Assembly: GCA_036488875.1 (NCBI GenBank)
Contig: DASXGW010000001.1
Coordinates: 186,001-250,000, forward strand
Source: Candidatus Baltobacteraceae bacterium
GTDB lineage: Bacteria; Vulcanimicrobiota; Vulcanimicrobiia; Vulcanimicrobiales; Vulcanimicrobiaceae
DNA length: 64,000 nt
Direction: 5' to 3'
Shown: piece after piece, positions 26,023 to 31,957 of the stretch
Numbering within the stretch: the stretch's first letter is position 1
How the letters are laid out: the number at the start of each line of letters is the position of its first letter
Made by a program: the position numbers and the translations under genes
The notes under the pieces: generated by a model
Seen by the model: only the letters and a program-made list of their open reading frames with translations
Told to the model about the DNA's origin: nothing
The model's database searches: none

Positions 26023-27492
26023 ATGCCTGACTACAAGAAGACGCTCTTTGTCAATCCTCCGAGTTTCGAGGGATTCGACGGAGGAGCCGGCGCGCGGTAT
26101 CAGTGCCGCCGCGAGGTCCGTTCGTTTTGGTATCCCACCTGGCTCGCGCAGCCGGCGGCGATGATTCCCGGCAGCAAGCTCGTCGACGCTCCGCCCGACG
26201 ATTTGACCGTCGACCAAGTGGCGCCCATGGCCAAGGATTACGAGCTCATCGTCATTCACACGAGCACGCCGTCGTTCAACAACGACGCGCGTTTTGCGGC
26301 CCGAATGAAAGAAGAGAATCCAAACGCCGTCATCGGCATGGTCGGTGCCCACGTCTTCGTGCTTCCGGAGCATTCGCTCGAGCACGCGCCGGCCGTCGAT
26401 TGGGTCAGCACGCAAGAGTTCGACTACACGTGCGTCGAGATCGCGCAGGGGAAGCCGTTCGGTGAAGTCGGCGGTATCGCGTACCGCGAGAACGGCAGCT
26501 TCGTCAGAACGCCGGATCGTCCGACGATCATGGACATGGACGCGTTTCCGTCGGTGCTCGACGTGTACAAGCGCGACCTGACCATCCCGAACTACTTCAA
26601 CGGCTACTTGCAGCATCCGTACATCTCGCTTTATACCGGACGCGGATGTAAGTCGCGGTGCACGTTTTGCATTTGGCCGCAGACGATCAGCGGACACCTC
26701 TACCGCGTGAAGAGCGTCGACCTCGTCGAGGCCGAAATGAAGCGCGGTAAGGAGCTGTTTCCCGAAGTCAAGGAGTGGTTCTTCGACGACGACACTCTGA
26801 CCGACAACGCTCCCCGCGTTGAAGAGCTCGCGCGCCGTTTGGGCAAGCTCGGGATCACGTGGTCGTGCAACGCGAAACCCAACGTTTCGCGCAGCACGCT
26901 CGAAGTGCTCAAGGAGAACGGCTTACGTCTGCTCCTGGTGGGCTACGAGTCGGGCGTTCAAGATATTCTCAACAGCATGAAGAAGGGCACGCGGCTCGAT
27001 CACATTCGCAAGTTCACCAAAGACTGTCACGAGCTGGGCATCAAGATCCACGGCACGTTTATTCTCGGCATCCCAGGTGAGACGCCGGAGACGATTCGCC
27101 AAACGATCGAGTTCGCGAAGGAAATGAATCCGGAAACACTGCAAGTTTCGCTGGCGGCACCGTATCCGGGAACGTTTCTCTACAATCAGGCGCGCGAAAA
27201 CGGTTGGCTGCAAGCGGAGGAGAGCGATCTCGTCGACGTTCACGGCGTGCAGCACGCGGCGCTGAACTATCCGGGGCTGCTGACGACGGAGATGCTGTTC
27301 GAGTCGGTCGACGATTTCTACCGTCAGTTCTATTTCCGGCCGAAGAAGATGTTCTCGCTGCTGGGCGGCATGATCACCGACCCGCAAGTGATGAAGCGCC
27401 GCCTGCGCGAGGGCAAGGAGTTCTTCCAGTTCCTGCGCGAGCGCAAGAAAGTCGGAGCGGACGAAAAGGCGGCCGCAGCCGCCGCCGTTTAG
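26023..27492 (+). CDS. hpnJ: Hopanoid-associated radical SAM protein HpnJ
   Basis: Converts glucosaminyl-bacteriohopanetetrol to its cyclitol ether by ring contraction (function reported for this family). The 489-residue protein opens with the highly conserved block TLFVNPPSFEGFDGGAGARYQ...REVRSFWYPTWLAQPAA. Residues ~60-145 form a B12-binding-like Rossmann domain (no DxHxxG seen). The radical SAM cluster is C209-x3-C213-x2-C216 (GRGCKSRCTFCIWPQ). Later come YESGVQDILNSMKKGTR and HGTFILGIPGETPET. With hpnI and hpnK about 22 kb away, this gives the complete side-chain route from bacteriohopanetetrol. The 3' end overlaps the convergent hydrolase by 4 bases. Confidence 0.94.
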   Translation: MPDYKKTLFVNPPSFEGFDGGAGARYQCRREVRSFWYPTWLAQPAAMIPGSKLVDAPPDDLTVDQVAPMAKDYELIVIHTSTPSFNNDARFAARMKEENPNAVIGMVGAHVFVLPEHSLEHAPAVDWVSTQEFDYTCVEIAQGKPFGEVGGIAYRENGSFVRTPDRPTIMDMDAFPSVLDVYKRDLTIPNYFNGYLQHPYISLYTGRGCKSRCTFCIWPQTISGHLYRVKSVDLVEAEMKRGKELFPEVKEWFFDDDTLTDNAPRVEELARRLGKLGITWSCNAKPNVSRSTLEVLKENGLRLLLVGYESGVQDILNSMKKGTRLDHIRKFTKDCHELGIKIHGTFILGIPGETPETIRQTIEFAKEMNPETLQVSLAAPYPGTFLYNQARENGWLQAEESDLVDVHGVQHAALNYPGLLTTEMLFESVDDFYRQFYFRPKKMFSLLGGMITDPQVMKRRLREGKEFFQFLRERKKVGADEKAAAAAAV

Positions 27493-28199
27493 CCGATTAC
27501 GCCGTAAGCGCGTAGAAACGCAACGGACAACGCCCAAGCCTGCTGCGCAGCTTGGGCGTTGTAACTTTTGCGTTGATCGCAGAAGAAGCCGTGCCCGGCT
27601 TGAGAGAAGACGACTTGCTCCTGAGTTTTCTTCGCTGCATCGAGCGCGTCGGCGACGGCGCGATAGTTCTCCGGCGGAATGTGCGCGTCCAACCCGCCCC
27701 AGAACATGAGGATCGGTCCGTGCTGTTTGGGCGCGAGGCCGAGGAGATCGGGAGCGATGCCGCCGCCGTAAAACGAGATCGCGGCCGCAAACGGCGCGCG
27801 CGCGTTGGCGACGTACGACGCGCGGCCGCCCAGGCAGAAGCCGGCGTTGGCGATACTCTTGACGCTCGCTTCGCGGGCGAGGAAATCGTACGCGGCTTGC
27901 GCGTCGTCGGATAACCCGTTTGCCGTCAGCGCCGTATAGTGCGGTTCGATCGCGGACCACGCATCCTCGGTATCGTAGGGGGCATCGAAGCCGCGGACCG
28001 TGCGATGAAAGAGCTCGGGGGCGGCGGCGACCAGTCCGAGCTGGGCAAACCGCCGCGTGACGTCTTGGATGTGATCGTTAACGCCGTAGGCTTCCTGAAA
28101 GACGACGATCCCAGCGCGCGGCGCGCTCGACTCGGGCCGTGCGACGTACGTGCGCATGGGTCCGTCGGGTGTAGTGAGATCGATCCACTCGCTCGGCAT
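27489..28199 (-). CDS. Dienelactone hydrolase family protein
   Basis: A 236-residue alpha/beta hydrolase with the dienelactone-hydrolase triad in order: C122 (AGFCLGGRASY), D171 (WGGLDAHIPPE) and H203 (SQAGHGFFCDQR). E35 in VVFQEAYGVNDHI is the conserved Glu that activates the Cys. Length is normal. The ATG shares one base with the stop of the thioredoxin-like gene before it (TAATG), so both are one translational unit; a redox partner role for the Cys nucleophile is only speculation. Substrate unknown. Confidence 0.88.
   Translation of the reverse strand: MPSEWIDLTTPDGPMRTYVARPESSAPRAGIVVFQEAYGVNDHIQDVTRRFAQLGLVAAAPELFHRTVRGFDAPYDTEDAWSAIEPHYTALTANGLSDDAQAAYDFLAREASVKSIANAGFCLGGRASYVANARAPFAAAISFYGGGIAPDLLGLAPKQHGPILMFWGGLDAHIPPENYRAVADALDAAKKTQEQVVFSQAGHGFFCDQRKSYNAQAAQQAWALSVAFLRAYGVIG
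27529..27565 (+). terminator. Possible terminator of hpnJ inside the convergent gene
   Basis: AACGCCCAAGC (27529-27539) and its exact complement GCTTGGGCGTT (27550-27560) form an 11-bp stem with a 10-base loop, about 40 bases after the hpnJ stop. The following GTAACTTTTG is only weakly T-rich. It lies within the coding region of the convergent hydrolase, so the fit may be partly accidental. Confidence 0.35.
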
Positions 28200-28768
28200 T
28201 ACGGAAACTCCTTAAACGATTGCTTGACGCGATACTCGCTGATCGGGTATCGGGAACGAAGGTTGGCCCACTGCGTGAGCAGCTCGTCGCTATCGGGATC
28301 GCGGCGATAACGCGTTACGCCAAGATAGTATTGCGCTTCGGGCGCGGCGTAAGTCGTCGAGAAACGCTTGAGCACGTCGACGTAGATTTCTTCGGCGCGA
28401 TCGAAGCGCTTGAGACGCAAGTATGCCATGGCAAATCCGCACAGGGTGCGCGCCATGAACTCGGGAGGCGGCAAGAAGCCGTCGAAACGGTAGAATTCGT
28501 AACCGTTACCGTCGAGGATGCGAACGTCCGGCGTCCAGATGTGATGGATGCCGTGCAAAAACTGCTGGCTCTCTTTTTTCGAGTTGTCGATTTGAACCGG
28601 GATCGCGTAGTCGGTGATCGTCTTGACGACCGGGGGTTGAGGATACGTCACGGTATCCAGCGCTTGGCATCCCCCTCAACCAGGGTTGAAAACGTCCAAA
28701 AAGACGAACTTGTGTTCTTCCTTCGCGCGCCCCATGGCGGCGGTGTAGTCGCTCTCCCACGCAATCAT
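28199..28768 (-). CDS. Candidate selenoprotein: thioredoxin-like UGGC protein with C-terminal helical repeats
   Basis: Reading through an in-frame TGA (28678-28676) gives 189 residues. The part before it, MIAWESDYTAAMGRAKEEHKFVFLDVFNPG, and the part after it, GGCQALDTVTYPQPPVVKTITDYAIPVQID, join into a normal thioredoxin-like domain of the type W..D...A...A..E.K...LD.......CxxC..LD..T. The TGA sits where the first Cys of CGGC is expected, so the product would have U31-G-G-C34. Residues ~95-189 look like TPR-type helices (MAYLRLKRFDRAEEIYVDVLKRF). A bacterial-SECIS-like hairpin lies 17 bases after the TGA. Without read-through only a 30-residue peptide and a C-terminal fragment starting at GTG 28651 would be made. 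Coupled to a dienelactone hydrolase (TAATG) and divergent from hypE. Confidence 0.75.
28641..28658 (-). promoter_or_regulatory. SECIS-like hairpin after the in-frame TGA
   Basis: On the minus strand GGATAC, loop CGTGAC and GTATCC form a perfect 6-bp hairpin. It begins 17 bases after the TGA at 28678-28676, so the apical loop starts 24 bases from it, and G is the second loop base. This meets the published description of bacterial SECIS elements (short stem, small loop with G in the first two positions, loop 16-37 bases from the UGA). An outer helix GGTTGA with TCAACC (28676-28681 with 28635-28640) could close the element and would include the UGA itself. Confidence 0.65.
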
Positions 28769-28883
28769 GGCAAGCTCATTCGCGCCAAGGCTACCGCATC
28801 CCGCGAGGCCGGCAAACGTGCCTTTTGTTGCTGTATCCCAAAATGTGGGTAAGGCCGGTTGTGAGGCAGGCAGTGGCGGTAAC

Positions 28884-29909
28884 GTGAACGTCCGCGAGAC
28901 GATCGCGCAGATCGAGATGGCGCACGGCGCAGGCGGAAAGGCGACGCGGCGATTGATCGAAGGCGTGATCCTTCCCGCGTTTTCTAATTCCGTTCTCGAG
29001 GCGCTCTCGGATGCCGCGCTGCTCACGGTGGGGGGCAAGCGCATCGCGATCACCGCCGACGGTTTCGTCGTCAAGCCTCTACAGTTTCCCGGGGGCTCGA
29101 TCGGAACGCTCGCCGTGCACGGTACGATCAACGATTTGGCCGTTTCGGGCGCGCGGCCGATCGCGTTGATGGCGACGCTCATCTTGGAAGCCGGTCTGCC
29201 GGGCAACGACCTTGCGCGGGAGATCGATGCGATGGCCGCTGCGGCGCGCGACGCGGGCGTTGCGATCGTCGGCGGCGATACGAAGGTCGTCGAGCACGGT
29301 ATGGCCGACGGCATGTACGTCTCGACGTTCGGGCTGGGACTCGTCGACGAGCGTTTGGCGTTGAACGCGCACCTCGTGCGTCCGGGCGACCGCATCGTGC
29401 TGTCGGGACCGATCGGCGATCACGGGATCACGATTCTGCTCGCGCGCGGCCAACTCGAGCTCGAAGCCGAGGTCGCATCGGACACGCGCTCGGTGCTGCC
29501 GCTCGTCGAAGCTCTGTGCTCGGTCGCCGCGGCCGGCGTGCGATGGATGCGCGATCCCACGCGAGGCGGCGTCGCAACAGCGCTCAACGAGCTGGCGCGC
29601 GAATCTCGTTTGGGAATCGTACTGGAAGAAGAAGCCATTCCCGTAGCCGACGCGGTGCGCGGCGCGTGCGAAACGCTGGGACTCGATCCACTGCACGTCG
29701 CCAACGAAGGCCAATTTCTCGCAGTCGTCGCGCGCGATCGAGCCGAAGCCGCGCTTGCGGCGATGCGGGCCGTTCCGGGCGGCGAAGCGGCGGCTATCGT
29801 CGGCGTCGTAGCCCGGCAGCCGGCCGGCGTCGTGCTAACGCGTACGCGGTCGGGCGGAACCCGTATCGTCGACATGCTCGCCGGCGATCCGCTGCCGAGA
29901 ATCTGTTGA
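28884..29909 (+). CDS. hypE: Hydrogenase maturation protein HypE
   Basis: Dehydrates the carbamoyl group on its C-terminal Cys to a thiocyanate, the cyanide donor for the [NiFe] site. The start is the GTG at 28884, giving 341 residues; upstream in-frame codons would add a tail that does not resemble the family. The PurM-like fold shows MAHGAGGKATRRLIEG, ITADGFVVKPLQFPGGSIGTLAVHGTINDLAVSGA, and MRDPTRGGVATALNELA. It ends in PLPRIC with the essential terminal Cys341, which separates it from the homologous selenophosphate synthetase SelD. hypF starts within a few bases. The hydrogenase subunits and hypABCD are not in the window. Confidence 0.96.
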   Translation: MNVRETIAQIEMAHGAGGKATRRLIEGVILPAFSNSVLEALSDAALLTVGGKRIAITADGFVVKPLQFPGGSIGTLAVHGTINDLAVSGARPIALMATLILEAGLPGNDLAREIDAMAAAARDAGVAIVGGDTKVVEHGMADGMYVSTFGLGLVDERLALNAHLVRPGDRIVLSGPIGDHGITILLARGQLELEAEVASDTRSVLPLVEALCSVAAAGVRWMRDPTRGGVATALNELARESRLGIVLEEEAIPVADAVRGACETLGLDPLHVANEGQFLAVVARDRAEAALAAMRAVPGGEAAAIVGVVARQPAGVVLTRTRSGGTRIVDMLAGDPLPRIC

Positions 29910-29914
29910 CGCCG

Positions 29915-31957
29915 ATGCTCGACGCACGAACGCAGCTTCGCGCCGGTGGGGTCGTGCAGGGGATTGGATTGCCCGCGGTCGACGCTCGCGAGAGGGAGCG
30001 CAGCGAGGCGCCAAGCGTTCCGATCTGCGCCGATCTGCCGGTTTGCGACGCGTGTTTGCGCGAGTTGTTCGATCCGCGCGACCGGCGCTACCGGTACCCG
30101 TATATCAACTGTACCGATTGCGGTCCGCGCTATTCGATCGTCCGTGGATTGCCCTACGAACGCGCGCAGACGACGATGGCGCAGTGGCCGATGTGCGACC
30201 CTTGCCGCGCCGAATTCGACGATCCGCTCGATCGGCGTTTTCACACCCCGCCAATCGCGTGTCCGGACTGCGGGCCGGCGTACGTGCTGGAAGAGCGCGG
30301 AAAGACGTCGCGCGGCTACGATGCCGTCGCCCGTGCCGCGCGGCTGCTCTACGGCGGCGCGATCCTCGCAGTGAAGGGCATTGGCGGATACCATCTTGCG
30401 TGCGACGGGCGCAACGACATCGCCGTGGCGATGCTGCGCGAGCGGACATCGTGTAAAGAGCAGCCTTTGCCGGTGATGGTGCGCGATCTGAGCGCAGCCC
30501 GAACGATCGTGCGGTTGGACCAACGCAGCGAAAAGCTGCTGCAATCGCCGGCGCGCCCCGCCGTGTTGGCGCCGGCCAAAGCCGATTTGCCCGGCGTCGC
30601 GCCGGACAACGGCGATCTCGGCGTGATGCTGGCGCACGCGCCGTTACACCACCTGCTGTTTGCCGCATGCGGGCCGAGCGTGCTGGTCATGACCGCCGCG
30701 AATCGCTCGAACGCGCCGATCGCCTATCGCGATGAAGACGCGCGGCGCTCGCTCGGGGAAATCGCCAATGCGTTTTTGATCGGCGAGCGCGAGATTGCGC
30801 GCCGTATCGACGACTCGGTCGCGCGAAGCGACGCGAGCGGTCCCGTCATCCTGCGCCACGCGCGCGGATACGCGCCGCAGGCCGTCGCGGCGCTCCCGAG
30901 CACGCGCCCGATCGTCGCGACGGGTGCCGACCTTCAGAACGCGGTCGCTGTCGTCGTGCGCGGACAGGCATTTGTGAGCCAGCACGTCGGCGACCTCGAG
31001 CGGCAGGGCGCCTACGAATCGTTCAAGGCGACCGTTGCCGATTGGAGCGCGCTCTACGAGATTTCCGCCGACGAGGCGATCGTCGCGCACGACGCCCACC
31101 CCGAGTATCGCTCCTCGGAGTTCGCGCGCGGGCTGCCGGGCGAAAAACACGCGGTGCAGCACCATCGCGCACACGTTGCAAGCGTGCTGGCGGAGCGCGG
31201 TGTGTTGGACGAGCCGGTCGTTGGTTTCGCGTTCGACGGAGCGGGATACGGCGACGACGGCGAGATCTGGGGCGGCGAAGTCTTCGCCGGCGACGTGATG
31301 TCGGGTTTACGTCGCGTCGCGCATCTGCGTCGCGCGCTGCTCCCCGGTGGCGACGCTGCGGCGCGATTTCCGGTTGCGGTCGCGGCGGGTTTTCTCTGGG
31401 AGCATCCGCAGCTCGGCGACGCCGGCGACTTCCAAGGGCCGCCGTTCCATTTTCCAGCGCGCTACGAGGCGGCGTGCGAGCTCCTGCGCGGCGGCGTGCG
31501 CGTCGTTCCAACGACGTCGATCGGGCGGCTGTTCGACACGGTGGCCGCGCTGCTGGGATTTACGCGCGAGATCGCATTCGAAGGGCAGGCGGCGATGTGG
31601 CTCGAGCATCTGGCGCGGCAGAGTACACCCGTGCGCGCGTATTCGATGCCGTTTGCGTACGGCGAGCTCGATTACGTACCGCTGCTGAGCTGCGTCGTCC
31701 ACGACCGGCTCGCGGGCCGCGACGCGCGCGAAATCGCGCGCGCGTTCCACGGCGCCATTGCCAGTGCCGTCGTCGAGACGACGCGTGAGTTCGGCGAGGA
31801 GCACGTCGTCGTCTCGGGCGGCGTGTTCCAAAACGCGGTGCTCACGAGGGATCTGTACGACGCGCTCGGTGACCGGCTGTGGACCAATCGCATCGTTCCG
31901 CCCAACGACGCCGGCATCTGTCTCGGACAAGCCGCGCTAGCGGCGTGTGCGCACTGA
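29915..31957 (+). CDS. hypF: Carbamoyltransferase HypF lacking the acylphosphatase domain
   Basis: Makes carbamoyl adenylate and passes the carbamoyl group to HypE. From ATG 29915 it has 680 residues (a TTG at 29906, overlapping the hypE stop, adds three), against about 750-770 in usual HypF. Two zinc fingers are complete: C44-x2-C47/C66-x2-C69 and C94-x2-C97/C116-x2-C119. A YrdC-like domain follows (GGAILAVKGIGGYHLACDG...CKEQPLPVMV), then a Kae1-like domain (AVQHHRAHVASVLAE, GFAFDGAGYGDDG.IWGGE, VVVSGGVFQNAVLT). The N-terminal acylphosphatase domain is reduced to about 12 residues: GVVQGIGLP survives and runs straight into VPICADLPVCDACLRELF. The missing domain normally hydrolyses the carbamate precursor, so it may be supplied in trans. 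Confidence 0.93.
   Translation: MLDARTQLRAGGVVQGIGLPAVDARERERSEAPSVPICADLPVCDACLRELFDPRDRRYRYPYINCTDCGPRYSIVRGLPYERAQTTMAQWPMCDPCRAEFDDPLDRRFHTPPIACPDCGPAYVLEERGKTSRGYDAVARAARLLYGGAILAVKGIGGYHLACDGRNDIAVAMLRERTSCKEQPLPVMVRDLSAARTIVRLDQRSEKLLQSPARPAVLAPAKADLPGVAPDNGDLGVMLAHAPLHHLLFAACGPSVLVMTAANRSNAPIAYRDEDARRSLGEIANAFLIGEREIARRIDDSVARSDASGPVILRHARGYAPQAVAALPSTRPIVATGADLQNAVAVVVRGQAFVSQHVGDLERQGAYESFKATVADWSALYEISADEAIVAHDAHPEYRSSEFARGLPGEKHAVQHHRAHVASVLAERGVLDEPVVGFAFDGAGYGDDGEIWGGEVFAGDVMSGLRRVAHLRRALLPGGDAAARFPVAVAAGFLWEHPQLGDAGDFQGPPFHFPARYEAACELLRGGVRVVPTTSIGRLFDTVAALLGFTREIAFEGQAAMWLEHLARQSTPVRAYSMPFAYGELDYVPLLSCVVHDRLAGRDAREIARAFHGAIASAVVETTREFGEEHVVVSGGVFQNAVLTRDLYDALGDRLWTNRIVPPNDAGICLGQAALAACAH

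Follow-up and report, generated by a model that had tools for sequence, protein, structure and literature searches.

A thioredoxin-like gene with one in-frame TGA

The window, a 64,000-nucleotide stretch of a 3.7-Mb genome that is 97.6% complete, carries a candidate selenoprotein gene whose frame is open on either side of a single in-frame TGA (Table 1). The first-pass annotation had described this frame without giving a strand, and translation of the minus strand from 28768 to 28199 with TGA read as U bore it out. The product has 189 residues, MIAWESDY...FLDVFNPG-UGA-GGCQALDTVTYPQ...FKEFP*, and the TGA at codon 31 lies in the context FLDVFNPG-U-GGC, which places it in a U-G-G-C motif. It had also been proposed that standard annotation would miss the protein and call a fragment; treating TGA as a stop does yield a 150-residue ORF, whose GTG start is Val40 of the full protein and lies within the thioredoxin domain. 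The gene will tend to be annotated as this truncated fragment.

Table 1. Positions of the features at the locus, in window coordinates.
Feature	Position	Strand	Basis
Candidate selenoprotein gene	28199..28768	-	Translation with TGA=U; Thioredoxin_7 and Thioredoxin_2 above cut-off; 37 phylum orthologues
In-frame TGA, codon 31, predicted to be read as selenocysteine	28676..28678	-	TGA in 37/37 phylum orthologues and 10 outside copies; TGC in two selA-less genomes
Putative SECIS apical hairpin GGAUAC-CGUGAC-GUAUCC	28641..28658, loop 28652-28647	-	Six pairs kept in 37/37; frozen wobble positions; within published bSECIS limits
150-aa ORF starting at GTG, expected from gene prediction if TGA counts as a stop	28199..28651	-	Standard genetic code
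Dienelactone hydrolase gene, TAATG overlap; neighbour outside the conserved unit	27489..28199	-	PF01738, 150.6 bits; absent beside orthologues examined
Divergent hypE-like neighbour (AIR synthase related)	28767..29909	+	PF00586/PF02769; adjacency not conserved; true start probably inside ORF

The hydrolase gene had been described as coupled to the candidate gene and taken to show that the downstream part is under selection. The TAATG junction is present, but the coupling does not serve as evidence of selection because it is absent at every other locus examined; that evidence comes instead from sequence conservation. In a genome of the same genus (G073, locus L018), the selenoprotein gene is immediately followed by a radical SAM gene. 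The window (26023-28768) has a similar radical SAM gene, with the hydrolase between it and the selenoprotein gene, so that the hydrolase was either inserted here or lost there. The neighbourhood was considered as a clue to function and rejected since the neighbours are not conserved, the hydrolase and hypE genes having matched only the locus of their own genome. Genes resembling hypE and hypF (NiFe-hydrogenase maturation) adjoin the selenoprotein gene at 28767-31957, and no link between them and the selenoprotein was found. A search of plasmids returned only two weak thioredoxin matches.

Conservation of the UGA codon, the hairpin and the selenocysteine machinery

The closest public loci were from Candidatus Eremiobacterota/Eremiobacteria (69-84% protein identity), and a search of 149 genomes of the phylum recovered 37 full-length orthologues (identity about 35-99%), with no codon other than TGA at position 31. 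The first-pass annotation had named random substitutions together with further stops in close relatives as evidence against selenocysteine (Sec), and neither occurred among these orthologues; the additional stops flagged among the phylum matches were terminal stops. DsbD-type matches with long frames (no stop, <40 bits) were taken as paralogues and left out of the counts, and L062 (from G006), a partial match with 30% identity and the motif CSYC, was likewise excluded from the Cys orthologues. In the nine computable pairs, dN/dS was 0.10-0.41 upstream of the UGA and 0.04-0.15 downstream, and both halves of the gene are under purifying selection.

Published limits for a bSECIS comprise a loop of 3-9 nt with G in position 1 or 2, a stem of 4-16 bp, a distance of 16-37 nt from the UGA and an MFE of at most -7.5 (PMC13188914). 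The hairpin proposed to follow the TGA with this geometry falls within them: it has a 6-bp stem and a 6-nt loop with G second, the loop begins 23 nt after the UGA, and the 51-nt stretch folds at -16.3 kcal/mol (-7.2 for the bare 27-nt hairpin alone). Compared with shuffles the folding energy is unexceptional (z = -0.64), and the hairpin is significant because it is conserved across relatives, not because of its energy. Six of six stem pairs form in every phylum sequence, and pairing falls to 21-54% in slid control windows. In three of them, L043, L060 and L061, both bases of one A-U pair have changed to give G-C, probably in two events because L060 and L061 sit on a deep branch apart from L043, while another pair varies between A-U and G-U among the phylum orthologues. 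Same-residue codon identity was 0.90 at +5 to +11 versus 0.50 in the rest (p = 1.6e-5), and the wobble positions within the hairpin are frozen. A longer outer pairing in the window (GGUUGAGG/CCUCAACC) is not kept in relatives, and we therefore limit the claim to the 6-bp apical stem.

The first-pass annotation had called for a search for selA, selB, selC and selD, and a complete Sec machinery was found in the same genome. It consists of a tRNA-Sec (78.1 bits, anticodon TCA), selA (508 bits), selB (276 bits) and selD (370 bits, itself with one in-frame TGA in the context CAG-U-ASK); selA, selB and tRNA-Sec all fall inside ~36 kb of contig C4. Across the phylum, selA was detected in 35 of the 37 genomes with the gene compared to 86 of 112 without it, a modest difference (Fisher p = 0.010) that is uncorrected for kinship. 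Two genomes carry the TGA gene and yielded no selA: G049, at 63% completeness, and G024, at 96% in 370 contigs. Gaps in the assembly of a clustered locus are the simplest explanation.

Outside the phylum, TGA was kept in ten copies from nine genomes (G180, G172, G390, G209, G410, G464 with two, G583, G565 and G492), and selA is present in all nine. By inspection, the hairpin occurs with a varied loop (AGUUAC, GGUCAC) in G180, G172 and G390 and in a shorter version in G492, and in the G209 group a different and stronger hairpin (CUCGGC-UGGAU-GCCGAG) takes its place. Two other genomes, G190 and G388, have TGC at the Sec position (HPECNGC and HPECGGC, respectively), in agreement with the initial proposal that the TGA stands for the first Cys of a CxxC motif; the conserved UGA is aligned with the redox Cys of these homologues. 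Neither of these hairpins was seen in the Cys forms, and selA was found in 0 of 4 genomes of their phylum, three of which are 97-99% complete. Predicted Sec thus occupies 47 of the 49 copies examined, with Cys confined to a lineage without selA. Predicted Sec in selA-positive genomes and Cys without the hairpin in selA-less genomes is the classical signature of a Sec/Cys pair. The two Cys forms cluster with full support in the tree, so a single Sec/Cys switch suffices to account for both.

Decoding of codon 31

We assign a probability of about 0.95 to a 189-residue thioredoxin-fold selenoprotein, in which UGA codon 31 would be read as Sec by the host SelA, SelB and tRNA-Sec under the control of the downstream SECIS hairpin. 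This is the reading first put forward for the locus, and it is supported by the Sec machinery, the Cys homologues, the SECIS and the intact relatives. At the level of sequence, the predicted Sec coding, SECIS and fold family are well established.

Under the standard code the frame is simply interrupted, and the UGA could then be a true stop, whether the locus is a pseudogene, contains a sequencing error or encodes two short proteins separately. We regard this as very improbable, given that all 37 orthologues share the TGA and are otherwise undisrupted, that purifying selection is seen on either side of it, that the hairpin is conserved and that the thioredoxin domain of the Cys homologues is continuous across the UGA position. 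UGA is also read as Trp in some lineages, and a reassigned code or a suppressor might insert Trp or another residue here. Such readthrough has as little chance of being correct: the homologous residue in selA-less genomes is Cys within CxGC and never Trp, and tRNA-Sec, selA and selB are all present in the host. In addition, the frame has no TGA besides codon 31 and terminal stops, and several orthologues terminate in TGA.

Fold, relatives and proposed function

A thioredoxin fold was recovered by Pfam, by a PDB profile search and by a structural model searched with Foldseek. Thioredoxin_7 and Thioredoxin_2 scored 34.8 and 30.4 bits, respectively, both above the Pfam cut-off of 27, and the thioredoxin domain matches PF13098 above cut-off. 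The AlphaFold2 model, built on eight sequences (pLDDT 80.6, pTM 0.82), comprises a thioredoxin-like part to about residue 96 followed by five helices, with lower confidence (55) in the active-site block (residues 31-40). The top solved matches in the profile and Foldseek searches were 2kuc (a putative disulphide isomerase), DsbH-type domains and DsbD-gamma. Residues invariant across the wider family include U/C31, G33, C34, W78-T79-P80, G89 and G97, among others, and W78-T79-P80 would correspond to the cis-Pro loop of the fold, at its expected place. Because the domain starts within a few residues of the protein start and leaves no room for a signal peptide, the selenoprotein is probably cytosolic.

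Conservation of the C-terminal helical part (~80 residues) extends to every full-length member. The initial description was of a U-G-G-C thioredoxin protein with TPR-like helices, of which the thioredoxin fold held and the TPR identity held in part: the tail is helical in the model and its profile matches the TPR chains YbgF, CpoB and BamD, but the best Pfam match, TPR_16, reached 24.1 bits versus a cut-off of 32.7. Sec31 and Cys34 (UxGC) would form a redox pair facing the invariant W-T-P, in which Sec31 may attack an oxidised substrate and Cys34 resolve the intermediate. The selenoprotein is very probably a redox enzyme, presumably with thiol-disulfide or reductase chemistry. Its TPR-like tail probably binds or selects a client or partner, and to name a particular client would be a guess.

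The protein is one of the UxxC thioredoxin-like selenoproteins, a kind already known, with new families reported regularly. None of the 119 prokaryotic selenoprotein families and subfamilies in a May 2026 inventory combines a UxGC thioredoxin domain with a TPR-like tail (PMC13188914), no NCBIfam model reached its cut-off for the window protein or for the relatives scored, and a search of the literature on Eremiobacterota/WPS-2 turned up no relevant mention of selenoproteins or selenocysteine. On balance we lean towards an unlisted, multi-phylum family, defined by a UxGC thioredoxin domain and a TPR-like tail, that would act as a selenium-dependent, client-directed cytosolic reductase and use Cys only in the selA-less lineage. 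That the protein is a genuine selenoprotein and simply a divergent member of the listed Sec 'thiol:disulfide interchange protein' group (PF13098/cd02953, UxxC) is an unlikely but appreciable alternative. It would account for the PF13098 score, the matches to DsbD-gamma structures and the motif UGGC, which conforms to the UxxC listed for that group (PMC13188914, PMC2398784), but not for the helical tail in all full-length members of the UxGC family. Nor did any NCBIfam model, DsbD included, reach its cut-off. The family is set apart from the listed PF13098 group by description, and this broad entry could hold relatives of it.

Comparison with individual systems points to shared domains in differing architectures. 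DsbD-gamma (PF13098, cd02953, including Sec forms) shares the fold and the UxxC position and gave some of the best matches by sequence and by fold, whereas the 189-residue protein adds the C-terminal helical tail, no membrane domain was found in it, and it scored 25 of 330 bits against the DsbD model NF001419. In VPGUxxT type 2 (NF041383), the N-terminal domain is thioredoxin-like and PGU occupies the same place in the fold (residues 2-68, 29.7 bits), but the score is far from the 275-bit cut-off of this 287-position model, and the VPGUxxT family is named for a Thr where the UxGC protein has an invariant Cys at +3 from Sec. TsoB (NF045694), a rhodanese/DsbD fusion-like selenoprotein, was matched in its C-terminal thioredoxin-like part (27.7 bits; 15 of 15 members tested); its model has 572 positions and a cut-off of 805 bits, whereas the window protein is a single thioredoxin domain with no rhodanese. 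The Trx7/PDZ (seleno)protein NF041199 has a Thioredoxin_7-type domain and weakly matched 4 of the 15 members tested, but it left the window protein unmatched, and its listed motif is CxxU (PMC13188914) rather than UxxC, with a PDZ domain that is absent here. Finally, CnoX/YbbN also has a thioredoxin domain followed by TPR helices (Foldseek 3qdn and 3qou, E 3e-4 to 1e-3), an analogy of layout only, since the rmsd is about 15 and it is not among the sequence matches.

The UxGC selenoprotein adds a well-supported family to a poorly cultured phylum. Its Sec and Cys forms offer a natural comparison, and the near-universal retention of Sec makes it well suited to testing why some thioredoxin-like enzymes need selenium. 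For work on SelB recognition in the phylum, the strongly conserved hairpin also supplies a clean set of SECIS elements.

Several minor observations concern the wider distribution of Sec genes. Both copies of the gene in G464 (L089 and L093), a genome from outside the phylum, have TGA. Genome G024 keeps the TGA in selD as well as in the Sec thioredoxin-like gene, with selA not found. In genus g35 (G109-G116), selA and the Sec thioredoxin-like gene are both absent from all eight genomes, and the Sec system has apparently been lost there. Letters shared between the SECIS of the selenoprotein gene and that of selD in the same genome were considered, but the two elements fold differently and we make no claim from them. 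The selD gene varies across the phylum: many genomes encode it with a single in-frame TGA and others without any, so that the phylum contains both Sec and Cys forms of SelD.
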